Source: Gammaproteobacteria bacterium (lineage in GTDB: Bacteria > Pseudomonadota > Gammaproteobacteria > JAABTG01). From it: 64,000 bases of DNA. Numbering within the stretch: position 1 is the stretch's first letter; each line of letters opens with the position of its first letter. Below, piece by piece: positions 28,107 to 61,000 of the stretch. The DNA is taken from NCBI GenBank assembly GCA_034522055.1, contig JAXHLS010000002.1, positions 1,426,001-1,490,000 on the forward strand, read 5' to 3'. The position numbers were made by a program, and so were the translations under genes. The notes under the pieces are model-generated. The model did not search any database, was not told where the DNA came from, and saw only the letters and a program-made list of their open reading frames with translations.

Positions 28107-28395
28107 ACAGCTAAAAAAACGTCTTGCTCGAAACCGCCCGATGTCATCGGTAACGATTCGTATGCCCGAAGATGTGGTCGAGGATCTAAAGAGAATTGCC
28201 CCTGTTCTCGGGTTTTCAGGTTACCAACCACTGATTCGTGCTTACGTAGGCCAGGGACTCAGGCAGGATCTTGATCGTCTGGAAAATGATACTGATACGG
28301 TTAAGGCTCTGATATCCGGTCTTAAAAAACGTGGCGTCAAGGAGTCAGTGATTGAAGAAGCGTTAGCCGAAGCAGTTCATAAAGAAACGGCATAA
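28097..28395 (+). CDS. brnA: BrnA-family antitoxin
   Basis: 98 residues. The central part SSVTIRMPEDVVEDLKRIAP is the ribbon-helix-helix strand and helix A, followed by GYQPLIRAYVGQGLRQDL. That region dimerises, binds the operator and neutralises BrnT. The start codon ATG lies within the end of brnT, so the pair is translationally coupled. Complete, and followed at once by an attC-like site. Confidence 0.8.
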
Positions 28396-28441
28396 CAATC
28401 GGCTCCATGGGGCCTACGGCCCATGAGCCGCGGCGTTAGCG
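28391..28441 (+). repeat. attC-like integron recombination site 1
   Basis: CATAACAATCGGCTC at one end and GAGCCGCGGCGTTAGCG at the other are complementary with extrahelical bases; the centre (ATGGGGCC TAC GGCCCAT) folds as an imperfect hairpin. AAC and GTT are in the positions of the R'' and R' core sites. It begins within the last codons of brnA. At 51 bp it is a little shorter than most attC sites. Confidence 0.6.
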
Positions 28442-29577: not shown

Positions 29578-29597
29578 ACTTTAGCGCGAGCAAGGAA

Positions 29598-29675: not shown

Positions 29676-29689
29676 GAGAGAGAACGCAC

Positions 29690-30119
29690 TAACGGGGTCA
29701 GACACGATATTGTGTTAGCTATCTAGCACGACGTCTTCAGGTGAGAGCCACCCATGGCCCGTCTTGCCCGCTACGTCATTCCCGGTCAGCCGCAGCACAT
29801 TATTCAGCAGGGGAACAACCGCCAGGTGATTTTCGCCGCGGATGCGAACTACCGGTTTTCAGGCACGCGCTGGTGAAGGCGGCCGCCAGGCACGGTCTGG
29901 TCATTCATGCCTATGTTTGGATGACCGATCACGTCTAGGTGCTGGCGATGGCGGAGTTCAGTCACGGCATCAGGAGTGAGGGGCTGGCCACCCCCGGTGC
30001 ACCGCGCCCACCCTGCGCAATACATTTCCCTATAGATCAGACCGCGCCGGTCTGATGGGCGGCTTAGTCCAACAGACATTTATCAGCCATGCTGCGCACG
30101 GCGGATAAATGCTTATTAG
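29690..30119 (+). repeat. Long direct repeat, right copy (R)
   Basis: Nearly identical to 26967-27746 minus the 347-bp segment between two GCCACCCCC repeats. It begins directly after attC-like site 3 with the TAACGGGGTCAGACACGATA sequence and ends with GATAAATGCTTATTAG. The pglY gene starts 190 bases further on. The rest of that spacer (30120-30309) has no gene. Confidence 0.85.
29754..29936 (+). pseudogene. RAYT transposase remnant 3
   Basis: MARLARYVIPGQPQHIIQQG and NNRQVIFAADANYRF as in remnant 2; a one-base loss then changes frame to RHALVKAAARHGLVIHAYVW MTDHV followed by TAG. It sits in repeat R and is a diverged sister of remnant 2. Confidence 0.8.
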
Positions 30120-30309
30120 TTGGTGACCGTCGGAGCCCGGTTCCAACACGTGCCGGCCTCCATTGGCGCGTTCCGCTGTCCGGAGGGCTGACATTTCTGC
30201 CTCGTGAGGCAGAATAGGGCATCCTACGACCCGGGTACCGCGGCCGCTTGCCGGCCCCTGGCCGAGAAAAAACCCCGGGCCGCGACAACAACAAGGACTC
30301 CCTTCACCC

Positions 30310-33300: not shown

Positions 33301-33396
33301 AAGGCGGAGGTGGAAGCCGTCCTGACGCGCACTCAGGACGACGTCGTCACCATCGACCTCACCCTCGTGATCCGCACCGGCAACACCCGTCCATGA
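30310..33396 (+). pseudogene. pglY: PglY/BrxC-type ATPase of a type 2 BREX system, internally deleted and frameshifted
   Basis: The first segment (30310-30775) reads FDIPERVYQGDLVLKLTDGV and Walker A HGSFGSGKSHFMAVLSLLL. At about 30775 it jumps from HHPDKPAPA to NLPVIANERLLKPKDEAAAR in another frame. From memory the family has roughly 200 residues between these points, including Walker B, which are missing here. A second shift near 31250 leads to AFTNDARLAKTLVLAALAPE and a clean 700-codon tail to 33396. PglY is the large ATPase of type 2 BREX phage exclusion. With Walker B lost and two shifts, this copy should be inactive. It overlaps pglZ by four bases. Confidence 0.8.
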
Positions 33397-35286: not shown

Positions 35287-35290
35287 GGAC

Positions 35291-36598: not shown

Positions 36599-38700
36599 AC
36601 GACGGATTCCAGCGGCTGCACTCCGCGGTGCAGTACCATGTCGCCAACACCCTGGGCTGGCCGGGGCTCCGCCCCCTGCAAGAGCTGGCGTCCGGACCAT
36701 TGACCGAAGGGCGTTCGGCGCTGCTTATCGCGCCTACTGCCGGCGGCAAGACCGAGGCGGCGCTCCTGCCCATTCTTTCCCGCATGCTAAGCGAGGACTG
36801 GCGCGGACTGTCCGTTCTCTACATCTCCCCCCTGCGCGCCCTGGCCAACAATCTGGAGCCTCGATTGAACCAGTTGGCCGGGATGCTCGGCCGGCGGGTG
36901 GCCCTGTGGCATGGAGATATCGGCCAGGGCCAGCGGCGGGCCGTGACACGGGAGCAGACGGATCTGCTGCTGGTCACGCCGGAAGCAGTGGAGGGGATCC
37001 TGTGCGGCTCCCGGACGGACCACCGTGCCCTCTTCGAGAACCTGCGGGTGGTCGTCGTAGATGAACTACACGCCTTCGCAGGCGATGACCGCGGCTGGCA
37101 GCTCCTGGCCCTACTGGACCGCCTCCAGCACCTGACGACGGGCGCATTGCAACGGGTGGGCCTCAGCGCCACCGTCGGCAATCCTGAAGCGTTACTGCAA
37201 TGGTTCACGGCGGGCAATGATCCCGGCGTCGTCATCCAACCACCAACGGAAACCTCGAGCCCGCCGGAAATCAAGGTGGACTACGTCGAGAATCTGGAGA
37301 ATGCCGCCCAGGTCATCGCATCACTACACTCGGGCGAGAAACGCCTGGTGTTCTGCGATAGCCGGGCACGGGTGGAAGAGCTGGCTTACCTGCTCCGGGA
37401 ACGCCAGATCGAGGCCCACGCTTCCCATAGCAGCCTGAGCGCGGAGGCCCGCCAGCTCGCCGAGCGAGCCTTCGCCGAATCCAGTAATTGCGTCATTGTC
37501 GCCACCAGCACCCTGGAGCTGGGTATAGACGTGGGTGACCTGGACCGCGTCATCCAGGTCGATGCACCGAGTACCGTGGCCGCTTTTCTTCAACGCCTAG
37601 GGCGTACCGGCCGGCGTGCAGGCACTTCCCGCAACTGCCTGTTCCTCGCCACGGACGCCGATGCCCTCATCCGCACCCTTGCACTTCTTCACCTGTGGCG
37701 GCAGGGATGGGTGGAGCCGCTACACCCGCCCCCATTGCCGATCCACGTCTTGGCCCAGCAGATATTCGCCCTCGTTCATCAGGAAAGTAACTTACGAGAA
37801 GCGGATCTGAGTGAGTGGCTTCGAGGCTTCCTGGATGCCTCACGGTTGCGGGGAAGCCGTGCCGAAGAGCTGCTTGCTTGGCTGCAGGAGGAGGGTTGGC
37901 TGCGCCACCTTGATGGGCGGTTGTGGCTGGGCGACAAGGCGGAGGCCCGTTTTAGGGGCAAGCGTTTCACCGACCTGCTATCGGTATTCAGTGCGCCGGA
38001 GTTGTTCACTGTGCTGCACGGCCGCCGGGAGATCGGCCAGGTCCATGGCTCGAGTCTGGCGGGCAAGGACGAGGCCCCGCCCGTTCTGACCCTGGGAGCG
38101 CGGAGTTGGCGGGTGACTCGATCCGACCACAACCGGCGGGTGGTATTCGTGGAATCCACAGATGCCACCGGTAAATCCCGCTGGCTTGGCAGCTCGCGGC
38201 ACCTGCGCAATGAACACTGCACCGCCGCGCGTGAAGTCCTGGCCGGAGAAATTCCATCGCACCTGCTCTCCCGCCGGGCGACGACCCTGTTTGCAGAACT
38301 CCGCGACGACTTCGCATGGCTCGAGCCGGATGGCGACGTGCCCCTGGAAGTCTTGCCCAACGGCCGTCTGCGGCTCTGGACGTTCATGGGCGGACTGGCC
38401 AACGCCTTGCTCCGACAGGCCATCGCTACGTTGACGGACTGCACCGCCGGCCAGCCACAACAGTTCTATGTAGATTTGGCCTGTCCTGGTAACCCCGAGG
38501 AGGTTCGCTCTCGCTTATGGGCGATGGCTGACCCGGCACGCCCCGATATAGGCGAGGATGAACGCCTGCCTCCGCTCAAGTTCAGCGAGACGCTGCCTGC
38601 CGCTACGTTATCCGAGGTTCAAGGTGCCCGATACACGGACAGCAGCGCTCTTGAGCGACTGCGACACGCGGGTATCCGCCTGGTGATGAACACGCTATGA
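36595..38700 (+). CDS. brxHI: BrxHI, DEAD/DEAH-box helicase of type 2 BREX
   Basis: 701 residues of a superfamily 2 (Lhr-like) helicase: motif I APTAGGKTEAALLPI, Ia YISPLRALANNL, II VVVDELHAF, III GLSATVGNPEAL, IV-VI with TSTLELGIDVGDLDRVIQVD and AAFLQRLGRTGRRAG. The C-terminal half has a winged-helix-like region and a unique tail. The start is GTG overlapping the brxD stop (GTGA). Intact and of the usual length. It closes the operon; pglX (methyltransferase) and pglW (kinase) are not found on either side. Confidence 0.9.
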   Translation: MNDGFQRLHSAVQYHVANTLGWPGLRPLQELASGPLTEGRSALLIAPTAGGKTEAALLPILSRMLSEDWRGLSVLYISPLRALANNLEPRLNQLAGMLGRRVALWHGDIGQGQRRAVTREQTDLLLVTPEAVEGILCGSRTDHRALFENLRVVVVDELHAFAGDDRGWQLLALLDRLQHLTTGALQRVGLSATVGNPEALLQWFTAGNDPGVVIQPPTETSSPPEIKVDYVENLENAAQVIASLHSGEKRLVFCDSRARVEELAYLLRERQIEAHASHSSLSAEARQLAERAFAESSNCVIVATSTLELGIDVGDLDRVIQVDAPSTVAAFLQRLGRTGRRAGTSRNCLFLATDADALIRTLALLHLWRQGWVEPLHPPPLPIHVLAQQIFALVHQESNLREADLSEWLRGFLDASRLRGSRAEELLAWLQEEGWLRHLDGRLWLGDKAEARFRGKRFTDLLSVFSAPELFTVLHGRREIGQVHGSSLAGKDEAPPVLTLGARSWRVTRSDHNRRVVFVESTDATGKSRWLGSSRHLRNEHCTAAREVLAGEIPSHLLSRRATTLFAELRDDFAWLEPDGDVPLEVLPNGRLRLWTFMGGLANALLRQAIATLTDCTAGQPQQFYVDLACPGNPEEVRSRLWAMADPARPDIGEDERLPPLKFSETLPAATLSEVQGARYTDSSALERLRHAGIRLVMNTL

Positions 38701-44415: not shown

Positions 44416-47256
44416 TCACGCGGCGAGGCCCTCGTTCAGCTGCTCGATGATCGTCTCGAGCTCATTGCCGAACAATTGGTGGACCCTTCCCAAGCCGCCC
44501 TCCTGGGCGAAGGGCGCGTACTCGAAATCATCCGGCTCGATGCCCAGATTCGCGGCGATGTGGTCCCGGATCATCTCCAGCCAGTGAATTTGCTCCGGGC
44601 TGAACGGTTCTGGATTCCGGCCTTCGCCGGAATGACGTGTTTGTTGTTGCGTCGCCAGCCAGGCATTGAAGTTGGCCTGCACCCGCTCGGGGAAGGGGAT
44701 CAGTTCGTTGTCCTGGTGGATGGCGAAGCGCACCAGGGACACCAGGTCGGTGAGGATGCGCCTGCCGCCGGCGCCCTTGACCCTGGTGTTTTCCAAAGCG
44801 GCATAGGCCTGCCATAGCTGGGATTCGGTCCACAGGTGGGGCGGGGCCTGAATCTGGTCGGCCAGTTCCTTGATGTCGTCGAAGTTCAGGCGGGCCCTGT
44901 AGGGTTTGCTGTAGAGGATCTGCAGGGCGGTGATCTCGTCCTTGTGGTCCTCGATGAACTGCTCGAAGGACTGGACGACGCCCCGGGCGCGCTCGGTGGC
45001 CTCCGCGCTGAAGCCGGCCTCGATGACCTCGTCCTGGCTGACGTGGTCGAGGGTGATCTCGTTTTTCTTCTTCACGTCGACCAGCAGCGCTCGCAGCCCG
45101 GGGTCGTACAGGGGCTTGACGGCCTGCTGGATGATCTTGTCCCTGGCGGCCTGCAGGATCTCGTTGCTGACGGGCTGGTCGCTGTCCGGCGGTAACCCCA
45201 GGTCGGCCCTGGCCTGCTCCAGGTGACGGTCGGGATTAATGGCCTCCACCAGTCGGCGGCTGAGGTCGTTGAGCCCTAAGCCTTGGGCCAGTTCGCGGAT
45301 TTTGTTGTCGTCGTCCTCGCTCAAGCGATGCTCCATGCGGGCCAGACGGCCGGCGATGGAGGTGAGCACGGCCTCTTCGGTGTTGCCGAAGCTCACCGCC
45401 TGGAGCAGCTTTTCGAAGGAGACTGACTTTTTCTGGTCCAGGGGCCGGGAGTCCGTCTTGTCCTGCTCGCAGACCCCGACGGCGTCCACGATGACGAAGT
45501 GGTTCTTTATTTCCGCGTCCGGGGTGACGGCCCTGAGGTCGTCGCCCCGGATGACCCGCACGCCGCGGCCCTTCATCTGCTCGAAGAAGGAGCGGGACTT
45601 GACGGCGCGCATGAAGACCACGATCTCCACGGGCTTGATGTCCGTGCCGGTGGCGATCATGTCCACGGTGACGGCGATGCGCGGGAAATAGGTGTTACGG
45701 AAGTCCTTGATCAGCTGCTTGGGTGTAGCGCCGGTGGTACGGTAGGTGATCTTCTGAGCGAAGTCGTTTCCCTTGCCGAACTCCTCGCGCAGGATCTCGA
45801 CGATGTTCTCGGCATGGTTGTCGTCCTTGGCGAATACCAGGGTCTTGGGGACCTCGGTGCGCCCGGGGAAGATCTCAGTCGGGAGCTTCTCCTTAAAGGT
45901 GCGCACCACGGTGCGGATCTGGTCCGGCGTGACCACGTCGCGGTCGAGTTGCCTGGCCTCGTAGCTCAGGTCTTCGTCCAGTTCCTGCCAACGTTTCTGC
46001 CGGGTCTCGCGGTCCTGCTGCTCCACGTAGTAACCGGCCTCGACCCTTGAGCCGCCCTCTGTGATCTGGGTCTTGATGCGGTAGACGTCGTAGTTGACGT
46101 TGACGCCGTCCGCCACGGCCTGCTCGTGGGGGTATTCCATGACCAGGTTCTGGTGGAAGAAGCCGAAGGTCTGCTTGTTGGGGGTGGCGGTCAGGCCGAT
46201 GAGGTAGGCGTCGAAGTATTCGAGCACCTGGGCCCAGAGGTTGTAAATGGAACGGTGACATTCGTCGGTGACGATGATGTCGAACGCTTCTATGGGAATA
46301 CCGGGGTTGTACTCAATCGGCGGCTGCTCCTTGAACAGGCCCTCCAGACCCTGCACGGAGATCTCTTCGTCTTCCGCGGGCAGTTCCTTGCCTCTGAGCA
46401 TGGAGTACATGCGCTGGATGGTGCTGATACAGACCCGCGCCGTGGTGTCGAGGTTGTTGCTGGACAGGCGCTGGACGATGTACTCCTCGCTGAATTTGAA
46501 GTTGTTGTAGGGCGAGACGTACTGCTGGAACTCCTTGAGGGTCTGGTCGCCCAGGTTGCCGCGGTCCACCAGGAACAGCACCCGGCGGGCGCCGGCGAAC
46601 TTAATCAGGCGGTAGATGAAGTTGATGGCGGTGAAGGTCTTGCCCGAGCCGGTGGCCATCTGGATGAGGGCGCGGGGGCGGTTCTCCCTCAGGGACTGTT
46701 CCAGGTTCCGGATAGCCGTTATCTGGGCGGGCCACAGGCCTTCCTCGATGAGGCGCGGCAGGTCGTGCAACCGGGCCAGGAAGGTGGGACCCCGGTCGAG
46801 GTAATCGCCCGGCGCCTCCCTCACTCCGTGGGCGGCGTCGTCGAGCCACTGGGCCAGGGTGTCCGGCCGGTGGAAGCTGAAGGTCGACCGGGCGCGCGGC
46901 TCGGGGTCGAGGCCGTTGGTGAATTTGGTTTCCGCGCCGGTGGACTGGTAGGCGAAAGGCAACGGCTTCTGCCAGGCGGGCAGACCGTCGGGCAGACCCT
47001 CCGAATACTTCGTCGACTGGATCTCGACGCCGGTCAGGGTGTGCCCCGCCTTCTTGGCCTCAAGCACCCCGGCGGCCTTGCCATCCACGTAGAACAGATA
47101 GTCGGCGAAGCCATGGCCCGATTTCAGCGGGAACTCGCGCACGGCGACTCCGCGCCCGGCCACGATGTTGGCCTCAGAGGGGTAGGTGACGATCCAGCCT
47201 GCGGCGCGCAGCAGTCGGTCGATCTCCTCCCTTGCTTTTTCTTCTTCTCCGGTCAT
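44416..47256 (-). CDS. hsdR: Type I restriction endonuclease, HsdR subunit
   Basis: 946 residues from the ATG giving MTGEEEKAREEIDRLLRAAG; the frame is open further upstream into the tRNA fragment, which cannot be coding. The N-terminal nuclease has GFADYLFYVDGKAAGVLEAK (PD-ExK). The translocase motor has Walker A QMATGSGKTFTAINFIYRL, the DEAD-like VTDECHRSIYN, GLTATPNKQT and the RGVRVIRGDDLRAV region, with an EcoEI-type C terminus (LRALLVDVKKKNEITLDHVS). Intact, but it has no complete HsdM or HsdS partner in the window, so restriction is unlikely without partners elsewhere. Confidence 0.93.
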   Translation of the reverse strand: MTGEEEKAREEIDRLLRAAGWIVTYPSEANIVAGRGVAVREFPLKSGHGFADYLFYVDGKAAGVLEAKKAGHTLTGVEIQSTKYSEGLPDGLPAWQKPLPFAYQSTGAETKFTNGLDPEPRARSTFSFHRPDTLAQWLDDAAHGVREAPGDYLDRGPTFLARLHDLPRLIEEGLWPAQITAIRNLEQSLRENRPRALIQMATGSGKTFTAINFIYRLIKFAGARRVLFLVDRGNLGDQTLKEFQQYVSPYNNFKFSEEYIVQRLSSNNLDTTARVCISTIQRMYSMLRGKELPAEDEEISVQGLEGLFKEQPPIEYNPGIPIEAFDIIVTDECHRSIYNLWAQVLEYFDAYLIGLTATPNKQTFGFFHQNLVMEYPHEQAVADGVNVNYDVYRIKTQITEGGSRVEAGYYVEQQDRETRQKRWQELDEDLSYEARQLDRDVVTPDQIRTVVRTFKEKLPTEIFPGRTEVPKTLVFAKDDNHAENIVEILREEFGKGNDFAQKITYRTTGATPKQLIKDFRNTYFPRIAVTVDMIATGTDIKPVEIVVFMRAVKSRSFFEQMKGRGVRVIRGDDLRAVTPDAEIKNHFVIVDAVGVCEQDKTDSRPLDQKKSVSFEKLLQAVSFGNTEEAVLTSIAGRLARMEHRLSEDDDNKIRELAQGLGLNDLSRRLVEAINPDRHLEQARADLGLPPDSDQPVSNEILQAARDKIIQQAVKPLYDPGLRALLVDVKKKNEITLDHVSQDEVIEAGFSAEATERARGVVQSFEQFIEDHKDEITALQILYSKPYRARLNFDDIKELADQIQAPPHLWTESQLWQAYAALENTRVKGAGGRRILTDLVSLVRFAIHQDNELIPFPERVQANFNAWLATQQQTRHSGEGRNPEPFSPEQIHWLEMIRDHIAANLGIEPDDFEYAPFAQEGGLGRVHQLFGNELETIIEQLNEGLAA

Positions 47257-47424
47257 TCCGTGGCGCTTGTCCTGGGATAAGCGTAGCCATGCCTTGGTGG
47301 ACGTTAATCCATAAGCGGCCTGGCAGCTACTCGGCGCGGGGGCGGGAGCGGGGGCCGGGAAAGGGCAGTCGCGCCTCGCCGGGGAGGGCGGCCAAGGCCC
47401 AGGGAAATAAGGCCCTGGGAAATA

Positions 47425-47473
47425 TGGTGGGCCGTGTTGGATTCGAACCAACGACCACCTGATTAAAAGTCAA
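47425..47473 (-). repeat. tRNA-Lys (TTT) 3'-half: attachment site fragment
   Basis: The minus strand reads TTGACTTTTAATCAGGTGGT then CGTTGGTTCGAATCCAACACGG CCCACCA in order: anticodon loop CTTTTAA (anticodon TTT), variable loop, TpsiC arm with GGTTCGAATCC, acceptor strand and CCA. The sequence upstream (after 47473) does not form the 5' half: no D arm, and the anticodon stem mismatches. It is therefore an att copy of a tRNA-Lys 3' end left by integration, lying 254 bases before a tyrosine integrase. Confidence 0.88.
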
Positions 47474-49004: not shown

Positions 49005-49280
49005 TCGATTTATTTCAAGTTGCACGCGGGCTTGGAATTTGCCCAGGCGATACCGATGACACTTTGTCGTGAGGGGGAGCGCAGCAGGAATAAGGAAGGG
49101 GCAGTGGACCTCTGGAATAATGTTCGGTGAGAAAGCGAAACCACTGCGGAGGGCTGCCCCAATGCCAGTATTTCACGCCGAGACCCGTCACGCCACTGCG
49201 TGCCCTATCAGCCAAAGCCTGGAGCGCCTGAAGGCGCTGCTGCGGGCGCTGCCCGAGCGCGCCGTGGTGCTGGAGGAAAT
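49005..49280. other. Junction region after the integrase
   Basis: No intact gene. A short plus-strand stretch (about 49212-49283) reads SLERLKALLRALPERAVVLE in one frame, perhaps a scrap of another gene fused at the ISL3 breakpoint. Confidence 0.3.
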
Positions 49281-49682
49281 CTGACGGACAACCAACAGCT
49301 AAAGTTACGCGACCTGCTGAAATACAACCTCAAAAGTGTGCGCGCCTACTTACTCAAGGAGCAGTTTCAGCAACGGTGGGGGTACCAATCCCCGGTATGG
49401 GCCGGCAAGTTCCTGGACGCCTGGTGCACGCAGACCATGCGCTCTCGGATCGAGCCGATGAAGAAGTTTGCCCGTACCATGCGTACCCATCGCGAGCTAG
49501 TGTTGAATTATTTCCGCGCTCGAAAGCGATTCTCCAGCGGCGTCGTGGAGGGGTTAAACAACAAGGCGAAAGTCACCATGAGAAAATCATACGGATTCCG
49601 CACCTTTCGAGCGACAGAAATCGCCTTGTATCATGCACTTGGCAAGTTGCCGGAGCCAAAACTCGCCCACAGTTTTTACTGA
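49281..49682 (+). pseudogene. ISL3-family transposase, C-terminal fragment
   Basis: About 133 codons: KLRDLLKYNLKSVRAYLLKE, WAGKFLDAWCTQTMRSRIEP, MKKFARTMRTHRELVLNYF and FSSGVVEGLNNKAKVTMRKS YGFRTF with the DDE-type catalytic Glu in VVEGLNN. The N terminus and the first two catalytic Asp are missing. Its end lies next to a truncated attC-like sequence downstream of the DUF4231 gene. Confidence 0.85.
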
Positions 49683-49693
49683 CGAGCCGATTA

Positions 49694-50149
49694 TTATACC
49701 GATTTGATCTGCTTCTTGTGCATTTTAATGTACTGCGACCAGTTACTGTTTTCCTTTGAGATCTGCGCCTCTACCCGCTTCACCAACAAATCGAAAGGTC
49801 GCTCGGCGTCGTACGGTTCGGTCTTGGTGAGAAAAAGATACTTTTCGTGCCGAAGCGCTTCACAAGTAGTGCGATATTCGATCCAATTTTCTTGGAACTT
49901 GTAAAATCCCGCGACTGCGCCCGCGGCTGCGATGGTTAAGCCAAGAACTCCCACAGTGAATTTCCTCCAAAAGCCGTCGGGCGCTATGTATCCGGCCAAG
50001 AATGGAATTGAGGCGGCAGCAATCAGTTGAAACACTTGAAGACGCTTGAACCATTTCTGATTCCACTGACTCTTGGCGTCATACCACTCAATCTGATCTT
50101 CGAGTCGATCGCGAAGATAATGCTCTTCGTCCATATGCGTTACGGACAT
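49694..50149 (-). CDS. DUF4231 (SLATT-like) two-helix membrane protein
   Basis: 151 residues. After a polar lead (LRDRLEDQIEWYDAKSQWNQ KWFK) come two hydrophobic helices (VFQLIAAASIPFLAGYI; FTVGVLGLTIAAAGAVAGFY) separated by a short loop, then a helical C terminus with ENWIEYRTTCEALRHEKYLF. This is the DUF4231 form of the SLATT fold, predicted in comparative work to be a pore-forming effector in nucleotide-signalled immunity. Its start overlaps the TIR gene by 10 bases. It is therefore the likely effector of a TIR-sensor pair. Downstream lies a piece that looks like the first part of an attC (TATAATAATCGGCTC), cut by the ISL3 fragment. Confidence 0.82.
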   Translation of the reverse strand: MSVTHMDEEHYLRDRLEDQIEWYDAKSQWNQKWFKRLQVFQLIAAASIPFLAGYIAPDGFWRKFTVGVLGLTIAAAGAVAGFYKFQENWIEYRTTCEALRHEKYLFLTKTEPYDAERPFDLLVKRVEAQISKENSNWSQYIKMHKKQIKSV

Positions 50150-50643
50150 TTTCTATTGTTCGAAAAGCGCTCGCGTTTGTTCACTATCTTTCTCGCGAGC
50201 GTTGTCCTTGCGTCAAATGCCTCTTCTACGATGCCATTGAATCCACTCTGAGAACTAGGGTATTTGTAGAACTTAGCGTATCCGGAGTCGACGTTCGCCT
50301 GAACTCGCTCTGGAAGAGACCTGAAGCTTTCCGCGAGCTGAATGGCGACGAGGCCGTTAGGGAAACCGTCAGCTGGCTGCCGAAGTGATGCCTGGACCTC
50401 CCAATCCACGTAACGGCGCGCACATGTGCATTGACCGATCAACACCAATGTTACCGTTGAGTCTTCGAGATATAGTTGGCGGATTCGACGCATCACATAG
50501 TCGGTATCATTAGAACCGATGATGTCATCAGTCATCTCCATCCCGCGTCGGATGAAATTTGCGCCAAAGGTTTGGATAAAGCGATCGACCACCGGCTTGT
50601 CCGCCTGGTGGTACGAAACAAAGCATTTTCGTCGGACTGCCAT
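50140..50643 (-). CDS. ThsB-like TIR domain protein
   Basis: 167 residues. RRKCFVSYHQADKPVVDRFI starts a TIR-like (DUF1863/ThsB) fold; GMEMTDDIIGSNDTDYVMRR IRQLYLEDSTVTLVLIG and then RRYVDWEVQASL, whose Glu is in the place of the catalytic Glu of this family, follow. ThsB proteins of the Thoeris system make a cyclic ADP-ribose-type signal on infection. No ThsA is present; instead a DUF4231 membrane gene follows with overlap. Inference: the TIR makes a signal that opens the DUF4231 channel. Confidence 0.85.
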   Translation of the reverse strand: MAVRRKCFVSYHQADKPVVDRFIQTFGANFIRRGMEMTDDIIGSNDTDYVMRRIRQLYLEDSTVTLVLIGQCTCARRYVDWEVQASLRQPADGFPNGLVAIQLAESFRSLPERVQANVDSGYAKFYKYPSSQSGFNGIVEEAFDARTTLARKIVNKRERFSNNRKCP

Positions 50644-50662
50644 GGTGGTTCTCCCTTAATCG

Positions 50663-50710
50663 GTATAACGCTTCAGTTCATCGACGGGCCTCTGCAACCG
50701 ATGGTTAGGC
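50663..50710 (-). repeat. attC-like integron recombination site 4 (minus strand)
   Basis: On the minus strand: GCCTAAC, a perfect RYYYAAC core site (50710-50704), then CATCGGTTGCAGAGGCCCGT CGATGAACTGAAGC and GTTATAC (50669-50663). The inner blocks pair imperfectly (CATCG/CGATG, GGTT.CAG/CTGAA). It stands between the truncated gene at 50727 and the TIR gene, where a cassette border is expected. At 48 bp it is shorter than usual. Confidence 0.5.
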
Positions 50711-50726
50711 GTCATGCGGCTCACCA

Positions 50727-51075
50727 TTAAATTTCGTCCTCGAATCTTGTCAACTGATTCTCTGAGATATCACGACTCTTGATGTAAACCATCAACTCTG
50801 GAACACCTCCAGAGCGTGCGGATAGGTTGAACTGAAGGCGACCATGCCACCTCGCACTTGGGTTGATGCCCACGCACTCAATGAGCCCTGCCCGCGAGGC
50901 AGTATTCAGCGGACTAAGGTTGGCTCCTGCGCAGTTCAGTCGCCTGACTTTGATCGCGGGCATGCACTCCGCGTCGGACACGCCGCCTAGATGTTCTAAG
51001 TCTGCGATGTCGGTACGTGGGGCGAACGTAGCAGTGGTCCACACCGTTGCACGGACATCTTCCGCCGCAGCGCAT
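50727..51075 (-). pseudogene. Unidentified gene cut by the IS4 element
   Basis: C-terminal part of a protein, about 115 codons (SLTDHECAAAEDVRATVWTT ... RRLNCAGANLSPLNTASRAG ... LQFNLSARSGGVPELMVYIK). I do not recognise the family. The frame stays open into the IS, but the sequence there belongs to the transposase. The stop is followed at 17 bases by attC-like site 4, so it may be the remains of another integron cassette. Confidence 0.5.
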
Positions 51076-52458
51076 TCGTGATCGGTTAGCGAGCCCATGC
51101 GACGCCCTGGTCGACTTGCTGGAGCAAGAGCAGCCGAGATCGGTTCGGGTCGACCGCTTTGTGCAGGAACATCGCTTCGAGGCGTTTCGCGAGTGCTCTC
51201 GCCGTGCGCAGGGGCATCATCATGAAAGCGAGGATGTTCAATGCAGCGGCGCTGAACAGCAATGCCCAACGGCCCTTGGGGACTCGATGCCGTTGGCTGC
51301 GCAGACGTTTTCGCACGGCATCAAGCAACTGCCGGCTAACCAGCAACGTGATGATGTTCGACAGGACGAGCGCCTCTACGACCAAGGCCTTGCGGGTTGG
51401 GAGCTCGGCGAGACGGTAATGCGACTTCAGTTCTTTGAAGATCAACTCCAACTGCCAGCGACAGGCGTAGACCTGAACCAGCGACTCTGCATCGAACTCC
51501 TCGGCCGGGATGTTCGTGAGGTAGAACCAGTAGCCCGCCGTGTGCGGGTCGCGCACGCCAATCAGCCGAAAGCGGCGCCGATGGGTACCCCGTTGACCGT
51601 CGTAGACCCCGCGCTTGAACTGAACTTCCACCTCGACGTCGAGCGCAATGCGCCGCAACTTGCCGGCGACGCCATTGAGGCGGTCGCCTTCGAGGGCGAT
51701 GCTGCGCCCACGCCACAGTCGGTTCACATCGACGATGAGCGGATTCGCTCCCGCCGGCACACGGGTGAGGAAGTACCCGCCGTTTCCGTCAATGCAATCA
51801 GAGAGTTGGTATCGGAGATAGCCGAGGTCGAAGAGCAGCAATCGGCCCCCGACCCACCGCCCCATGCGCAGACTGCGGTGGTCGTTCGCACGCTCTCCTG
51901 TGAACTTGACCTTCTCCAGCCCCGCGCCCATCACGCTCATCACCAGATGCAGCTTCTCCGCCGCAGGGTTGGCGTTGGCGCGCGTGCCCGGATAGCGCCG
52001 GGCGAGCAGTCGATGCAGCTTCACCACGCTCGCATCGGTGACCACCACGTCGGCAAACTTCGCCAGCAGGCCGCGAACCGCCGGCTCGTGCTCGGCCACC
52101 TGGCCGCACCACCCAGTGACCACCGCCCGCAGGAATCGCACCAGCTCCGGAGTAAACCGGTCGTAGAACGCCGACAGCACCAGCGAAGTGCCCGTCGCGC
52201 ACTGATACATCCGCCGAAGGCCTGCCAGGGTACGCTCTCGTCCCGTCGCGTAACCCAGCACCAGCGTCCACAGCATCGCGCTCGGTTCGACCTTGCGGCG
52301 ACGGCGAACCATCCCGCTCTCGTAGGCGAGGCGCTCGATCTCCGCCTTCGGCAGCACTCTGGTCAACGTCTCTCGGACCCCAGTAGACTTCGCTCGGGCT
52401 ACGGCCACTCCTCTGTGCCGGTTGAAGCTTCAGCAACTCCAATCAGATCAGAGGCCGT
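51076..52458 (-). mobile_element. IS4-family insertion sequence
   Basis: A complete IS4-type transposase gene with short flanks. Imperfect ends are suspected (a TGATCGGTTAG-like sequence near 51070-51090 and TGATCTGATTGG on the complement near 52455), but I could not fix the termini or find a clear target duplication. It interrupts the gene at 50727-51075. Confidence 0.55.
51086..52408 (-). CDS. IS4-family transposase
   Basis: 440 residues. The first catalytic Asp is in VVVTDASVVKLHRLLA, the second in LLLFDLGYLRYQL; the YREK block is YACRWQLELIFKELKSHYRL with Glu as the third residue of the DDE triad. An N-terminal helical region (ESGMVRRRRKVEPSAMLWTL) precedes them. It appears intact, so the IS may still be active. 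Its GC content is higher than that of the neighbouring defence genes. Confidence 0.93.
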   Translation of the reverse strand: MAVARAKSTGVRETLTRVLPKAEIERLAYESGMVRRRRKVEPSAMLWTLVLGYATGRERTLAGLRRMYQCATGTSLVLSAFYDRFTPELVRFLRAVVTGWCGQVAEHEPAVRGLLAKFADVVVTDASVVKLHRLLARRYPGTRANANPAAEKLHLVMSVMGAGLEKVKFTGERANDHRSLRMGRWVGGRLLLFDLGYLRYQLSDCIDGNGGYFLTRVPAGANPLIVDVNRLWRGRSIALEGDRLNGVAGKLRRIALDVEVEVQFKRGVYDGQRGTHRRRFRLIGVRDPHTAGYWFYLTNIPAEEFDAESLVQVYACRWQLELIFKELKSHYRLAELPTRKALVVEALVLSNIITLLVSRQLLDAVRKRLRSQRHRVPKGRWALLFSAAALNILAFMMMPLRTARALAKRLEAMFLHKAVDPNRSRLLLLQQVDQGVAWAR

Positions 52459-52701: not shown

Positions 52702-55700
52702 TTACAGGAAATCTAATGAGACTTCGAACGGCGCACGAACTTTTGCGAGCTCAATTAGCTCTCGCCCACCGATAGGTAACACTCTCCACAATTCGATGAC
52801 CCCGAATACGTCAGCAACTGTGATTACTTGCGCATCGTCGGAGAGATGTCCCCCTTCGCCATATAGTTTTGCGTTTGACCAAAGCACGTTACCAACGTCG
52901 GTATCCACCAGTGCCACCACCGTCCTATCCAGCCGCCTTCCGTTCAAGAGGGCAAGGGGTCGGGTCCGTGACACGTTCACGGACTTGTTTTCAAGTTTCT
53001 CCAGCCCGACGTCGATCACGGGCTGGGACTGGCCCGCAACGTATTTAGCCAAGCCATTAAACGCGAGAATGTATAGAGTCGGCTGGTCCTGGTACTCGAT
53101 GACCGCGTCGAGTTGAATACTTTGTTGGGCACGAGGCCCAACCTGGAACACAGTTACTTGGTCCGGACCACCACTCACTTGACACGTTGCCTCTTCACAT
53201 ACGATCAGGAAACGCTGGTCGTTGCTCTCCGTAATGTCCGAGGTGAAGAGACGCCCATCTTCGAAGAGGCTGAATTCATATCCGCTCTCGGGGAGACTCA
53301 CACCGCTCGATTCAACAAGCCCCTTCCGCCACCAGCTGAGGCGACAGGATCGCCTTGATCGCAGCACGGGCGCAGACGAATACGCGCTTCCGAGAAGCGG
53401 AAGCTCCTTCACGAAGGTGAATACTGCAAGTTGTTGCCCGTCAAAGAGGGGGTATACGGCGCAAATAGGCTGTGCGAACGTACGTTGCGCCGCGATCTGC
53501 CCTGTCTCAGCAGGAATCTCCACCAAAGTTTTGTCGGAGAAACAATATGCAGTCGAGCCGGTTGCCGTGAGCCGGCAACCCTTCGTCTTCGACGCCGAGT
53601 GATCTTGAAACACTGGATCTGGCTTGGCTTCTTTGTAGAGCGTGTACTCCGACACGCCCTCTTTAGACACTGCGGCTACTAGCATCAGCCTGGACGCAAT
53701 GTCAATATGGTCGACGCGGTAGGCCCGTGCGTCCCACAAATGGCGCCAGGTTATGGAGTCAAATACACTATAGCCGTCTCGATGGTTGACCGCAATGATC
53801 CTTTCCTCACCGCCAAACAATTGAGCAAGTCCTTGCCCGTAGTCGAGTTTAAGCGGGAGAGGATGCTCGAAGAGCAATTCATTGGTCGAGAGTTCGAACA
53901 CTTTAAGCCCGGATTCTGTCAGCACCGCAAGTTGTGCTTCGGAGATTAATCTATGGTCGACAATGCTGTCTGCGGCTGTCTCGACCACAGTTTCCGGCTG
54001 TTCTGGCCTGGTGCGATGGACAACTACCATCTCACTCCCGGTTACCGACACGAGGTCGCTTGAAGGTGAGAACTGTGTGCGCAATGAGAAGCGTGAGCCG
54101 AGAGCTCTGTCGTACGGCGTTTCAAACGAGGTCAACACCTCCTCCGACCACGGGTCCACGACGAGTGTGACGATCCTGGTTACAGACTCGGATTGCACGC
54201 TCACTGCAAGGAGATTTGTGTCCTCCGAAAACACCAGTTCGCTCGCAAGCAGTGGCCGATCGAAAAGCGATATTTCCGCTAACAGCTTATCCCGAAACCG
54301 GACATAGAGGACGCCGTCGCGTGACAATACAGCCAAGTACTTCCCGTCGGTAGAGATACCGTAAGAGCTTACGTTTTTGACTGTCCATGGCTCATATTTC
54401 TCGCGCAGAAAAACGAAGGTCACGTCACCGTGTTGTCCGGCCGTAGACCCCGATTTCAGCAAAAGCACGTCCGGCGTGGCCAGTTGCGGCTTTAGCTGCC
54501 TACCAGCCTCCAAGCCCGTACTCAACTCCACCTGGATAGGGGCCCCTTTCTCGTCCTTGCTAATCTCATAGACCCCCCCAGCTTTCTCGGCAACGACGAA
54601 GCCGTTGCGATCTTTGTGGCAGTCCACAGCAACGTCTTGTAGGACCTTCCACCGCTCGTAGCCACCCTTAGCGGCGGTAAAAATAGTGATCCTGCCGGTC
54701 ATGCCTAGTTGATTCCTCGGTGCCAACAAGAGGAACTCTGCCCCGTGGCAGGCAAGAATGAGATCTTTCGTCTGCAGATCTTGCTGAAAACTGATGGCTC
54801 CGGTATCCCAGTCACGCACCACCACCAGTAACGTCACCAGACAGGCATCCATGTTTGAGAATGTCAAAGATTCGCATTCTGCGGTGCTGGCGTGCTTGGC
54901 CTCCACGGTCAAGATTTGCTTACCGGCCTTCGTCTCTAGGATCTGAACGATGTTGTTCGAAATAACAACGGATGCACCTGCGGGCCCTTGCCTGACAAGC
55001 TTTTTCTGGAGGGAATCGCCCCGCCACACGAGGCGCAAGGTGCCGTCCTCGGTCTCGCCCAGCGCAATTCCACTGCTCCTAGCGTACCCTTCGTCGCGTG
55101 AGACGGTTTGCTCCATCAGATCCACCGAATAGGCGTTTCCGTCGCTGGTGTATACTCTGAGCTGCTGGCCCGTTTCGTCGAACGTTGACGAACTGACACC
55201 CTTGCTTGAGCGGATCGTTGCCGTGGCAGTGGATAAGTATAGAGCCTTTGATAGTAAGCTCTCGCTAGTTATAACGATCGGTCGGTTCTCGTACTCCGGG
55301 TCGTCCGGCAAAGCGGATATGAGCTTGGGTATCGCCGCCCCATAGCGGCCTGCCTGGATGTCTCGTTCGGCCGCTGACGTCAAGGCAATCGAATCCGCCC
55401 GCAACTGATCCCACCGACGTTGTTCCATCTCTTGCCATACATATGTCATAAGGACAAGCAGACCCACGGCCCCTGCGGCCAACATAGAGAGCCTGCGATT
55501 TCGACGTTTACGTGCTCGCTGGGCAAGGTCGTCATAGCGAATACCCAGGATGAACGCGATGATTTTTAGAAGCGCAGCGTTATTCTCCCGCCATGTCGGG
55601 CCAAACTGCACGAAAAGTGGCTGATCAGAAGGATACTCGGCATGGAGCTTAACTTCGTCTGAAGTCCAGGAAGGATGGGATATAACATCCTTTGACGCGT

Positions 55701-56034
55701 TTCCTGGTCTGATCGGCAGGATTCGGTGGCCTTTCCCCTGCCGACGGAACTCGGTCAACTCCATCTTTACCCACTCTGACGAAATCGAGTTCTCGGTGGC
55801 AATCACTAGTAACGTGTCAGATGCCCGCAACGCATCAACGACCGAATTCGTGAGGCTTGGGGCCCCCCCAAACTCTTCGGTGTCGAGAAAGACGGGGGCA
55901 ACCGTCCTGCCCTTAACATCTGATTTGTTAATCTTCAGGTTTCTTGGAAGCGTGTATCTTTCGAGCTGCTTGTGAAGCCAGCCAGCGAACGTCCTGTCGT
56001 GATGACTGTAGCTGATGAATGCGCGATATTTCAT
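52702..56034 (-). CDS. TIR domain-transmembrane-beta-propeller protein
   Basis: 1110 residues. The N-terminal TIR domain starts KYRAFISYSHHDRTFAGWLH and has TLLVIATENSISSEWVKMEL with the WxxxE signature of NAD-cleaving TIRs. A basic stretch RARKRRNRR precedes one membrane helix (LSMLAAGAVGLLVLMTYVW, about residues 183-203). The remaining ~880 residues are repetitive beta-strand units (about a dozen, e.g. YSVFDSITWRHLWDARAYRV, FGVIELWRVLPIGGRELIEL), a WD40/quinoprotein-like propeller. Such TIR-WD fusions are found in scattered bacteria; a sensor (propeller) with an NADase or signalling effector (TIR) is a reasonable guess. GC is lower than the host. Confidence 0.85.
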   Translation of the reverse strand: MKYRAFISYSHHDRTFAGWLHKQLERYTLPRNLKINKSDVKGRTVAPVFLDTEEFGGAPSLTNSVVDALRASDTLLVIATENSISSEWVKMELTEFRRQGKGHRILPIRPGNASKDVISHPSWTSDEVKLHAEYPSDQPLFVQFGPTWRENNAALLKIIAFILGIRYDDLAQRARKRRNRRLSMLAAGAVGLLVLMTYVWQEMEQRRWDQLRADSIALTSAAERDIQAGRYGAAIPKLISALPDDPEYENRPIVITSESLLSKALYLSTATATIRSSKGVSSSTFDETGQQLRVYTSDGNAYSVDLMEQTVSRDEGYARSSGIALGETEDGTLRLVWRGDSLQKKLVRQGPAGASVVISNNIVQILETKAGKQILTVEAKHASTAECESLTFSNMDACLVTLLVVVRDWDTGAISFQQDLQTKDLILACHGAEFLLLAPRNQLGMTGRITIFTAAKGGYERWKVLQDVAVDCHKDRNGFVVAEKAGGVYEISKDEKGAPIQVELSTGLEAGRQLKPQLATPDVLLLKSGSTAGQHGDVTFVFLREKYEPWTVKNVSSYGISTDGKYLAVLSRDGVLYVRFRDKLLAEISLFDRPLLASELVFSEDTNLLAVSVQSESVTRIVTLVVDPWSEEVLTSFETPYDRALGSRFSLRTQFSPSSDLVSVTGSEMVVVHRTRPEQPETVVETAADSIVDHRLISEAQLAVLTESGLKVFELSTNELLFEHPLPLKLDYGQGLAQLFGGEERIIAVNHRDGYSVFDSITWRHLWDARAYRVDHIDIASRLMLVAAVSKEGVSEYTLYKEAKPDPVFQDHSASKTKGCRLTATGSTAYCFSDKTLVEIPAETGQIAAQRTFAQPICAVYPLFDGQQLAVFTFVKELPLLGSAYSSAPVLRSRRSCRLSWWRKGLVESSGVSLPESGYEFSLFEDGRLFTSDITESNDQRFLIVCEEATCQVSGGPDQVTVFQVGPRAQQSIQLDAVIEYQDQPTLYILAFNGLAKYVAGQSQPVIDVGLEKLENKSVNVSRTRPLALLNGRRLDRTVVALVDTDVGNVLWSNAKLYGEGGHLSDDAQVITVADVFGVIELWRVLPIGGRELIELAKVRAPFEVSLDFL

Positions 56035-57058: not shown

Positions 57059-58111
57059 CTACAAGACGATGACGACACTCCGCCGCGCGCGGGTCACGGC
57101 AACGTATAAGCGGTTTCGCTCAATGGGGCTGAGCTTGTTCGGGCCGTCTTTCCCGGACGCAACCCGGACCATCGGTCTGCTTCCAAACAACACGACCCGC
57201 TCATAGGTCGCACCCTTGGAGACGCCGATGTTAATCGCTGGAAGGCCCATGGTGTCGTTGGTCTTCTGCCTGCGCAGCACAGTGACCTCGGCTCCGTATA
57301 TCTGGAGGTACCCGGGTAGTTGAAGGCGAGTCAGTAGGTGGACGCCATCGCCGTCCTCGCCCTCATCGTGGAGGGATGTGGTCGGCTCGTATCCCTCGAA
57401 GAGAGCGTCCGCCCAGTCGAGGATCGCCTGGCAGCATCGGTGACTCTCATTCAGCCACTCGATCTGGATGGTCGCAGCCCGCTTTTCGAGCCACGCTACA
57501 AAGGACGCCCCCTTGTACTTCTTGTTCTTGTTGCTGTCGTCGGTGAAGTATAGCGCCTGCCGGGGATCGCCCACGAGGTGCACGGTGGGAGGCGTCGCCA
57601 TCAGCACGTCCAGTAGGTCGAAATCGTGGCCAGCAAGATCCTGCATTTCGTCAATGTAGATCTCGCTATAGATGGAGGCGAGTCGTTCCATCACCTTGCC
57701 ATCACTGTCCTCGTTGCAGATTAGTGCGAGAGCTGAGGCTCGGTTCTTGTATACGTCACCCTGCTTCGTGAGGTAATAGCTCCGCTGAGTCTTCTTGGCG
57801 AATTTCTGCCACGGAGCGTTTTCGAAGAAAAGCGAACGCACAACGCCGATCTGGCCGAGGAAGGCCAGCTGGTACGGATGGCAGAGCTCGTTGATCAGGA
57901 ACCGATACCACGTGAGGATGTCGACGTTCCGGGGCACGACGCCGCATGCCTGAGCAACTCGACGCTCGATATGATTGCGGTTCTCGATGGTATAGGTAGT
58001 GATGAGCACGCGCTTGCCATCGGCCGCGGCGGCGAGGGCACCGTCGATAAGCCTCTGCGTCTTGCCGGACCCAGCGGCGCCGATGGTGGCCGTGTGCCTA
58101 GGCGAGGTCAT
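57059..58111 (-). CDS. Short UvrD/PcrA-like helicase (GajB-like)
   Basis: 350 residues of a superfamily 1 helicase: motif I IGAAGSGKTQRLIDGAL, II EIYIDEMQDLAGHDFDLLD, III HLVGDPRQALYF, IV WLNESHRCCQAILDWADALF, V GVSKGATYERVVLFG, VI RNRLYVAVTRARRSVVIVL. It is about 150 residues shorter than known GajB proteins, mainly because the accessory subdomains are reduced. Its start lies inside the end of the OLD nuclease gene (14-base overlap), so the two are made together. Role by analogy: activates or is guided by the nuclease partner in phage defence. Confidence 0.88.
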   Translation of the reverse strand: MTSPRHTATIGAAGSGKTQRLIDGALAAAADGKRVLITTYTIENRNHIERRVAQACGVVPRNVDILTWYRFLINELCHPYQLAFLGQIGVVRSLFFENAPWQKFAKKTQRSYYLTKQGDVYKNRASALALICNEDSDGKVMERLASIYSEIYIDEMQDLAGHDFDLLDVLMATPPTVHLVGDPRQALYFTDDSNKNKKYKGASFVAWLEKRAATIQIEWLNESHRCCQAILDWADALFEGYEPTTSLHDEGEDGDGVHLLTRLQLPGYLQIYGAEVTVLRRQKTNDTMGLPAINIGVSKGATYERVVLFGSRPMVRVASGKDGPNKLSPIERNRLYVAVTRARRSVVIVL

Positions 58112-59705
58112 CCAGCGCCTGGGTAATGTACGTCGGCATGGTGAGAGTGCTCTCGGACTCGAAGATGGCTAGTGCCGCGGACGTCTTGTTTGCCTCCATC
58201 CACTTCAGGAGGTCGGCGTCGGTGGTGTCCGCGCGGCCGAGCACAGTGTTGAGCGCTTCAAGGCTGCTGGCCGCGAGCAACTGCGGTTCGAGGGTCTTGA
58301 GCGTCGTGTCGGCGCCTACCCGCACGGTGATGAAGTCGTGCTCGGTGTACTGGTCGTAGCCGGCGAGGACGTCCGCGTGAGCCTTACCGTCGTTGTCCCT
58401 CACCACCACGACGCGCCTCTGCAACGGAACGGCGAGATCCAGGAAGCGCTTGAACGACAGTCCGCGCGTACTGAGGATGTCGACGCCGTCGTGGATAGGC
58501 AGCTTTTGGTATCGGTCTTTGTAGGCCCGCTGAAGGATCAGCTCATCCGAGGGGCCCTCGACAAGCACGACCTTCCGGGCAAGCACGAGCCGGAGCGTGT
58601 CGTAGCCGGGCAGCTTCTTAAAATAATCCTCGGAGTCTGCACTGAGCTCGGTAATGCGGAGCGATGTACTATCCCCACCCATCAGGATCAGGCTCGCGAG
58701 GCCGAGCTTATTGAGGACGTAGGAACTGTGCGTGGTGATGAACACTTGCTTGCCTTCGCACTTTGCGAGGATCTTCTCCAGAAGGATATTCAGCGACGCA
58801 AAGGACAGGTGGTTCTCCGGTTCCTCGACCAACATGACGTGCGTGTCGTCAACCTGACGGCTCAAGGCCAGGAGAACCTTCAGTCGGCTTTGCTCTCCCT
58901 TACCGACGTATGGAAGGGGGAGCTGGTCGAGGTGTGGTGCGAGGCTGCTCTCCCAGGTTGACCGATGAGAGATGTCGATCGAGAGGCTGAGGCATCGGTC
59001 CGACACGTCGCCGTGGGACTCAGTCAGCTTCTCATTGATGGTATTGACAGACCCCTGCGCGGCGAAAGCTTCACGGATGCTGCGGTACTGACGTGAGAGC
59101 TCCGCCCGCTCGGGCTTGGTGAGTGTGCTTCCGATTATCTGCTGTAGGTAGTAGTCAGCACCGGACTGCAGCCGGATGGTCGAGGCGTCGATCATGGACA
59201 CCGTCGCTGGCACGCCCCTTGCGTTGATTGGATTGCCAGAGAACCCGAGCCAGTCGACCCGGTAGTACTCGACGGGGATCAGTTTAAGATCAGTCGGGTC
59301 TTGGATGAACTCGTGAAACTCGTCAGCCAGGTCGGGGTCGGGATAGATCCGGATTCGGATGCCCGGACTATCTTCACCAAGGGCGTTGTTCGTTCCTTGA
59401 AGCTTCGCAGTGTCTTCGTTCTTCTCCATGAAGAGATCGATGATGATCTCCGGAGGCTCCACCTTCTGGTGGGCTTGAAGCGCAGCGAAGTAGGCGCCGG
59501 TTGACTTGCCGTTGAAGTGAAACGGCGAGAGATCTGTGATGATCGATCGGCCGCCGACTCGCCCGGTTAGGGCGAGGCCAATCGCCTCGACGAGGGTTGA
59601 CTTCCCGCTGTCGTTGTCGCCGACGAGGATGTTGAGACCCTTGTTGAAGTCGAGCGTGTAGTCCTCGTAGCACCGGTAGTTCTTGATGACGATTTTGGAA
59701 AGCAC
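58098..59705 (-). CDS. OLD-family ATPase-TOPRIM nuclease (GajA-like)
   Basis: 535 residues. The ABC-type ATPase half has Walker A GDNDSGKSTLVEAIGLAL, the signature-like GKGEQSRLKVLLAL and Walker B VMLVEEPENHLS, with the H-loop TTHSSYVLN. The TOPRIM half has VVLVEGPSDELILQRAY and VVVRDNDGKA (Glu and DxD metal ligands). This is the architecture of GajA, the Gabija nicking nuclease, and of class 2 OLD proteins. With the overlapping UvrD-like gene it forms a Gabija-like pair. Length is close to known GajA proteins. Confidence 0.88.
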   Translation of the reverse strand: MLSKIVIKNYRCYEDYTLDFNKGLNILVGDNDSGKSTLVEAIGLALTGRVGGRSIITDLSPFHFNGKSTGAYFAALQAHQKVEPPEIIIDLFMEKNEDTAKLQGTNNALGEDSPGIRIRIYPDPDLADEFHEFIQDPTDLKLIPVEYYRVDWLGFSGNPINARGVPATVSMIDASTIRLQSGADYYLQQIIGSTLTKPERAELSRQYRSIREAFAAQGSVNTINEKLTESHGDVSDRCLSLSIDISHRSTWESSLAPHLDQLPLPYVGKGEQSRLKVLLALSRQVDDTHVMLVEEPENHLSFASLNILLEKILAKCEGKQVFITTHSSYVLNKLGLASLILMGGDSTSLRITELSADSEDYFKKLPGYDTLRLVLARKVVLVEGPSDELILQRAYKDRYQKLPIHDGVDILSTRGLSFKRFLDLAVPLQRRVVVVRDNDGKAHADVLAGYDQYTEHDFITVRVGADTTLKTLEPQLLAASSLEALNTVLGRADTTDADLLKWMEANKTSAALAIFESESTLTMPTYITQALDDLA

Positions 59706-60514: not shown

Positions 60515-60779
60515 AAAGATCCGGCGCCATGTGTTTCACCCTGTCTGCGCCGGCCGGGAGTAAGATTAGCAGCACGGCACCACATCCTACCGGACGTGAT
60601 GGTCCCTCTGTTTCCTACATCTTCGCCGACCTGCCGCATCGACTTACCGTGGGGAAAGGGGACGTCAGCGGCTTGGCAATGCCGGGCATTTTAGGGGGGG
60701 GAATCCCACCAGGGTAACCGCTAGCCAGGAACCCGGTAACGAGCCTTGCAGTCAGTCCGGTAACGGGCTGGTTGATGTG
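60515..60779. other. Gene-free stretch
   Basis: No supported gene. It contains an odd G7 run (60694-60700) and short GTAACGGG-type repeats near 60717-60765. It borders the group II intron 3' end. Confidence 0.35.
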
Positions 60780-61000
60780 TAGGTAGTCGGGTGGCCACGG
60801 GTGATCGCTCACCCGCGGCTCCCACAGATCCGGACGTGCCCACACAGGCATCCGGCTCCTCGATGTAGCAAACGCTACGGGGCGTACACACTGTGAGCCA
60901 CGCGTGCAGGCTGGAGAGGGTGGCTCTGGAGCAGGCCCGTGAACTGATCCCAGTTCAGGTAGGCCCGTCCGGAGGGGCCCACAGGGTCGGACCTGCGAAA
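60780..61000 (-). mobile_element. Group II intron 3' end (ORF tail, domains V and VI)
   Basis: On the minus strand an open frame ends in GPSGRAYLNWDQFTGLLQSH PLQPARVAHSVYAP and a TAG, like the tail of an intron-encoded protein. Then comes a GAGCCGGATGCC ... GGCACGTCCGGATC hairpin, the 34-nt domain V shape with its AGC triad and C-G bulge, then a second hairpin GCCGCGGGTGA ... TCACCCGTGGC suitable for domain VI, and an end near CCGAC/CTAC. The rest of the intron (upstream, beyond about 61000) is not present. Confidence 0.6.

Follow-up and report, generated by a model that had tools for sequence, protein, structure and literature searches.

The minus strand of the window (the whole stretch of 64,000 nucleotides that was analysed) carries a ThsB-type TIR gene followed directly by a gene for a SLATT membrane protein, and this locus is best read, with somewhat better than even confidence, as a two-gene TIR-to-SLATT immune module that forms a short operon and whose most likely origin is an integron gene cassette. 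In the 5' to 3' order of the minus strand the locus is composed of a cut ORF, an attC site, the TIR gene, the SLATT gene, and then the end of an ISL3 element; the genes adjacent to the TIR are SLATT, the ISL3 remnant, the cut ORF, and an IS4 transposase. The GC content is 49.7% at the TIR-SLATT locus versus 62.9% in the window. The features of the locus are as follows.

49278..49688 (start approximate), plus strand: 3' part of an ISL3 element, delimited by comparison with seven copies in the genome
49689..49696, no strand assigned: GATTATTA, putative 8-bp ISL3 target site including the SLATT stop, the partner copy being gone
49694..50149, minus strand: SLATT_1/DUF4231 membrane-protein gene, 151 aa, full-length ORF, alternative start ATG at 50134
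50140..50643, minus strand: ThsB-type TIR gene, 167 aa, full-length ORF
50651..50655, minus strand: Shine-Dalgarno-like GGGAG 5' of the TIR start, read from the sequence
50663..50710, minus strand: attC (48 bp) with R'' GCCTAAC, L'' CGGTT(G)CA, L' TGAACTG, and R' GTTATAC, boxes read from the alignment
50727..51085, minus strand: 3' part of a cut ORF, from the ORF list, its stop 16 nt before attC
51086..52408, minus strand: IS4-family transposase gene on the upstream side, NCBIfam transpos_IS4_1 207.3 bits

The TIR and SLATT Genes

The first gene of the pair encodes a TIR protein with the ThsB fold and an invariant Glu. Its ORF matches Pfam ThsB_TIR at 49.1 bits (cut-off 21.2), the top match of its profile among solved proteins is ThsB (E 1.3e-15), and the six top solved structural matches of its AlphaFold2 model (pLDDT 81.9) are ThsB or bacterial TIR proteins with Z of 11.3–14.9, including 8fz9 (Z 14.9, rmsd 2.3 over 122 residues), 8wcf (EcThsB; Z 14.0, rmsd 3.1 over 134 residues), and 6lhy (ThsB; Z 13.8, rmsd 2.2 over 115 residues), after which the list continues with deoxyribosyltransferase-like DNPH1 and SARM1 at Z of about 10. 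The residues F8, S10, and E82 are invariant in a 20-sequence alignment, and E82, the Glu of the W/Y-E region, was found in 20/20 and 30/30 aligned TIRs, the two sets overlapping. Among phage families the protein matches phrog_13658 (3e-21). No NCBIfam model matched the window TIR at E 0.1; nine related TIR ORFs matched none at E 0.01, while a tenth matched the retron-TIR model only. The NCBIfam “Thoeris type III” TIR model gave a weak match to a window protein other than the TIR of the pair.

The second gene encodes a SLATT protein with two hydrophobic, predicted transmembrane helices. The ORF reaches 84 bits against DUF4231 (cut-off 24.7) and 139.4 bits against NCBIfam SLATT_1 (cut-off 41), and the phage family phrog_7395 is matched at 1.9e-45. 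Two hydrophobic stretches at residues 37–60 and 62–85 are seen in the hydropathy profile, and the structural model (pLDDT 90.8) is all helical with four helices. Sequence and fold searches with SLATT yielded no significant relative of solved structure, and for this reason its gating is a conjecture; a match to a human receptor (E 0.014) and the helical-bundle rows of the fold search were judged to be due to chance.

In the original prediction the TIR and DUF4231 genes were described as overlapping by 10 bases. Both ORFs and their families are as described, but the overlap of 10 bases exists only if SLATT starts at 50149; in most aligned SLATT relatives the first residue is near the Met that corresponds to M6 (50134), a start which would leave a 5-nt gap to the TIR gene, so that the overlap depends on the start codon chosen.

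The attC Site Upstream of the Pair

The attC upstream of the TIR gene is genuine, as had been proposed originally, and lies in the cassette orientation at a distance of 19 nt from the TIR start codon. In a scorer developed for this analysis it reached 43.8, and the opposite (plus) strand of the site 18.1, which makes its orientation clear; the background maximum, over both strands of 1.92 Mb of first-order Markov sequence, was 30.1. Curated attC sites scored in leave-one-locus-out mode had a median of 44.5 and a minimum of 22.1 (n=53). This curated set includes 53 sites from 11 arrays located beside integron integrases in other genomes; it was obtained by automatic motif selection of 59 sites minus six doubtful ones, with loci without arrays omitted and the near-identical sites of one locus (L098) limited to three.

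An attC covariance model, built here from 31 sites of 75 nt or less and distinct from that of IntegronFinder, gave 27.2 bits for the upstream site (E 7.9e-4 for the window, filters off), which is the third rank among four window attC, the next window match having 10.2 bits. By reading of the alignment L'' carries the unpaired G that is expected there. The length of the site, 48 bp, is below that of all 53 curated sites, which were themselves filtered at 52 nt or more. The window scan by the scorer resulted in four attC sites at 40–44, within the range of the curated sites. On the far side of the attC the cut ORF, which has no Pfam, PADLOC, NCBIfam, or plasmid match, is probably a truncated preceding cassette.

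The Downstream Border and the ISL3 Element

The downstream side of the pair is occupied by the ISL3 remnant, whose ORF 49200-49682 matches DDE_Tnp_ISL3 at 116.3 bits; the remnant stops at 49688, with 5 nt to the SLATT stop codon (TAA, 49696-49694). It had been supposed that the 15-mer at 49698-49684 is the start of another attC cut by the ISL3 element, and this candidate is rejected as best explained by the ISL3 terminus. In the genome the sequence of seven related ISL3 copies is common up to GAGGC and diverges thereafter, from which it follows that GGCTC in the window is IS sequence, namely the ISL3 terminal repeat, while the bases that precede it hold the SLATT stop. The opposite end reads GGCTC in 6/7 of these copies, and exact 8-bp target duplications accompany 5/7.

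The 15-mer differs from the start of two window attC sites by 2 and 3 mismatches and has four matches in the window, itself included, versus 0.54 expected; the ten host bases beside the ISL3 end agree with attC site 1 at 8/10 positions. On this resemblance, the one sign in its favour, ISL3 may have inserted right at the start of an attC, in which case the missing border would be a cut attC. Neither the scorer nor the covariance model found a downstream attC for the pair nearby on the same strand, and the suggested covariance-model scan of both borders was therefore positive upstream but gave no match downstream. The downstream end of the cassette would have been lost with the ISL3 insertion 5 nt past the SLATT stop, and with this loss the pair would be unable to move as a normal cassette.

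Genomic Surroundings

Besides the attC of the pair, the window contains a separate cluster of sites near 28 kb.

28390..28441, plus strand: attC of the 28-kb cluster, some 22 kb distant from the TIR pair, scorer 43.4, covariance model 29.7 bits
28873..28931, plus strand: attC of the 28-kb cluster, scorer 40.4, covariance model 50.7 bits
29598..29675, plus strand: attC-like site of the 28-kb cluster, scorer 42.1, covariance model 20.0 bits (E 0.032)

The nearest other attC to the pair is thus located 21 kb away on one side, and on the other side no attC was found up to the window end, 13 kb on. A CALIN is characterized by at least two attC in a stretch of about 4 kb; the TIR-SLATT locus has a single attC, the next in the window being 21 kb off, and does not form one. 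In the region 27830-29680 three small gene pairs, by eye BrnTA-, HicBA-, and VapBC-toxin-antitoxin-like, are accompanied by the three attC-like sites and look like cassettes without an integrase nearby. This cluster is flanked by a direct repeat (26990-27770 and 29690-30120), by eye similar to REP-type transposase remnants.

In a search of the genome no integron integrase exceeded the TIGR02249 cut-off (265 bits). The best match (L003:1501-1869, 203 bits) is a C-terminal fragment covering model positions 194–313, located on the same contig about 99 kb from the TIR pair; small IS66-like ORFs (by eye) stand in place of its missing N-terminal part. Another contig of the same genome (C6) carries an attC array, in which nine attC are spread over about 20 kb (L168 and L169), two of them repeated with equal scores; two reverse-transcriptase-like ORFs (by eye) and an ISL3 gene are interspersed among them, and three further attC sites were seen in L170. 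The whole-genome attC scan gave at least 13 matches, a lower bound since 150 of 5,532 candidates were scored, and the site at 50663-50710 is not among them. According to these data the original proposal of integron carriage is upheld at the upstream border by the attC, but lacks the downstream border and an integrase over the cut-off.

Several defence genes lie in the same window: Gabija (57059-59705), whose GajA and GajB genes overlap by 14 bases, BREX genes (31294-38700), a gene for type I restriction (44416-47451), and one for a large TIR protein (52702-56034); the Gabija and BREX genes are in line with the immune reading of the pair. The large TIR protein, of 1,110 aa, adjoins the IS4 element and has an N-terminal TIR and a long C-terminal part with very weak propeller-type matches only. 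At 60700-60831 the window matches a group II intron (Rfam RF02005, 51.4 bits). In agreement with the original statement that ThsA is missing nearby, none was present among the PADLOC matches listed for the 14 neighbouring ORFs (E limits 0.1 and 1e-5).

The insertion sequence remnants on both sides, the cut preceding ORF, and the integrase reduced to a fragment are all consistent with a locus that has decayed and no longer works. Such decay is quite unlikely, as both ORFs of the pair are full length with residues that are invariant in relatives, and the TIR gene is preceded by a ribosome-binding-like sequence.

Conservation of the TIR-SLATT Pair

A TIR gene beside a SLATT gene is a conserved module, which was seen in phages, in bacteria, and in one archaeal MAG. 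The collection of viral contigs was the one scanned most deeply for SLATT, and the scan with the SLATT alignment identified 47 loci there, which fall into 32 clusters at 90% SLATT identity, 25 at 70%, and 14 at 50%. A ThsB-type TIR ORF on the same strand was present in all 47, at distances of −52 to +438 nt, and was placed downstream of SLATT in 45/47 and upstream in two (L161 and L164). This conservation supports the original view of a minimal two-gene TIR and SLATT immune pair.

In a survey of 72 rows, which includes the window locus itself and in which one gene is counted twice (L035 and L119), 53 rows have a ThsB-type TIR, 5 have a TIR_2-type only, and in 14 none was detected. The seeds of the ThsB profile include the TIRs of the window, L028, L029, L039, L040, and L105, and those of the TIR_2 profile include L025 and L026; these rows match by construction because their own TIRs are in the profile, while the 47 viral rows are non-seeds. 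Two TIR ORFs of the survey are short (L125, 61 aa; L134, 100 aa), and for most genome loci the flanks extend about 1.5 kb only. One further locus (L106) had no ORF readable as SLATT and was removed.

Outside the viral contigs, ThsB-type pairs are carried by two further class genomes (L028 and L029), by two staphylococcal phage-like plasmids (L039 and L040), and by a contig of 3.8 kb that was binned to an Archaeoglobus MAG (L105). SLATT also stands beside a TRAF-binding/TPR-S protein in L027 and beside a SAVED protein in L041. The best TIR match of the plasmid search (43.6%) was on a Vibrio harveyi plasmid (L011:2548-4537), where a DUF4231 protein with SLATT_3 and part of SLATT_1 lies near the TIR on the other strand, together with a second TIR and a TRAF-binding protein.

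The TIR was found in 1/5 genomes of the family sample, this being the own genome, and in 4/369 genomes of the class sample, own genome included; SLATT was found in 1/5 genomes of the order sample, again the own genome, and its relatives in 15/369 class genomes and, at a stricter limit, in 6/398 genomes of the phylum sample, the own genome counted in both. In the TIR search of genome contigs none of the 67 pattern matches was confirmed.

attC Sites at Related Loci

A general association between TIR-SLATT and attC was mostly not seen at the loci scanned. With default filters no attC was detected at the first 25 loci (24 with TIR/SLATT and one, L003, with the integrase remnant), a scan that left out L013-L015, L018-L020, L037, and L038, nor was any found at the 47 viral loci. 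The covariance model applied to 60 loci (279 kb) gave one site of 41.4 bits, which belongs to the array of the own genome (L047), and three of 13.0 bits. Among seven related genomes with wider flanks one (L174) has an attC, of 52.7 bits.

In this genome the gene order at L174:4984-8471 is SLATT, TIR, an Eco57I-type methylase, an XhoI-type endonuclease, and attC, which lies 6 nt past the endonuclease stop, and a full-length integron integrase match is present on another contig. No upstream attC was seen there, and two genes separate the pair from the attC; the row is possibly a four-gene defence cassette, and the arrangement supports cassette carriage of SLATT-TIR. Of the expectation that both neighbourhood and attC borders would recur, the first part thus holds, since TIR-DUF4231 neighbourhoods do recur, but attC borders do not in the relatives scanned, except at L174 with its restriction-modification pair in between. 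An integrase over the cut-off was found in 4/7 genomes with a close SLATT (one of them partial) versus 103/274 of the class sample, which is no enrichment (binomial p 0.24).

These results bear on an alternative which is possible, if rather doubtful, namely that a genuine TIR-SLATT immune module arrived here not as a cassette but with a prophage or a defence island, and by chance abuts the attC of an older, decayed cassette. Both proteins match phage families and most pairs were found in viral contigs; in addition, the attC is single, insertion sequences and a tyrosine integrase adjoin the pair, and nearly all related loci scanned are without attC. Against it stand the correct orientation of the attC at 19 nt from the TIR start, the three further attC 21–22 kb off, and a second genome (L174), in which the SLATT-TIR gene row ends in a strong attC. 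Acquisition as an integron gene cassette remains the preferred explanation.

Relation to Known Systems and Proposed Mechanism

The TIR-SLATT logic was proposed in silico in 2022 for firmicute phages (PMC9503650, section 3.7.4), where Streptococcus phage Javan281 and Staphylococcus phage SN10 are named; Javan281 was also matched by the TIR search performed here. Like the window pair, the neighbourhoods described in that section have a TIR beside a two-helix SLATT, whereas the window pair is located in a bacterial chromosome, has the TIR first, and stands beside an attC. That SLATT forms a gated pore has been predicted in the literature (PMC9503650, PMC7159879), the prediction going back to 2015 (PMC7159879). 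The search for literature on DUF4231 together with TIR found none, and in the literature searched no test of TIR-SLATT was seen.

The likeness to Thoeris consists in the ThsB-type TIR of the window, with the same fold and conserved Glu; Thoeris, in contrast, has a SIR2-SLOG or TM-macro ThsA, and the window TIR is adjoined by SLATT instead. The papers listed in a literature search on Thoeris type III were unrelated. The system of the P2-like phage AC1, reported to be active against phages (PMC9122126), likewise combines a TIR with separate membrane proteins, in three genes. Integron-borne anti-phage cassettes were described in 2025 (Darracq, Kieffer, and Getz, cited via PMC12409362 and PMC12444791), and in these accounts small defence genes are carried as cassettes, while the window pair keeps one attC border. 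None of the matches listed in a literature search, which lay outside most subscription journals and bioRxiv, linked TIR-SLATT to integrons. TIR-SLATT pairs and integron defence genes were therefore both known before, and the window locus is a new example.

In the proposed mechanism, phage infection would cause the TIR to cleave NAD and make a nucleotide signal, or else to signal by contact; SLATT, in the place of ThsA, would respond by opening or permeabilising the inner membrane, and growth would stop before phage release. According to PMC11204291 ThsB-type proteins make signals for a separate effector, and Phe or Ala is usual in NADase-type TIRs at the position that the active-site Tyr occupies in ThsB of TM-macro systems. 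Position 8 of the window TIR is Phe, and if F8 is equivalent to the active-site Tyr position, a cyclic-ADPR-type product would be likelier than His-ADPR.

The same equivalence, placing F8 at the Phe/Ala position of NADase-type TIRs (PMC11204291), would also suit a different and rather improbable mode of action, in which the TIR itself depletes NAD in the manner of SARM1 and SLATT is a sensor, anchor, or inhibitor instead of a signal-gated pore, and the variable gene order and spacing of the pair are in line with it. It is opposed by the nearest solved structures, which are ThsB-type signal makers (PMC11204291), and by the presence of SLATT beside other signalling proteins (L027 and L041), so that signalling from the TIR to SLATT is the mode of action adopted here. 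In pneumococcus a DUF4231 protein is co-selected with ypsA, and it is ypsA that is called a ligand-binding protein (PMC11368177); this co-selection may hint at a SLATT ligand.

More broadly, it is tentatively suggested that TIR-SLATT is a distinct and widespread Thoeris-like class, occurring from phages to archaea, in which a NAD derivative made by a ThsB-type protein gates a SLATT pore and which was picked up by integrons more than once, here after an attC and in the row of L174.

In summary, the TIR-SLATT locus is a compact two-gene version of a predicted system with clear mutational targets, and it suggests integron cassettes as a route by which the pair may pass between unrelated bacteria.
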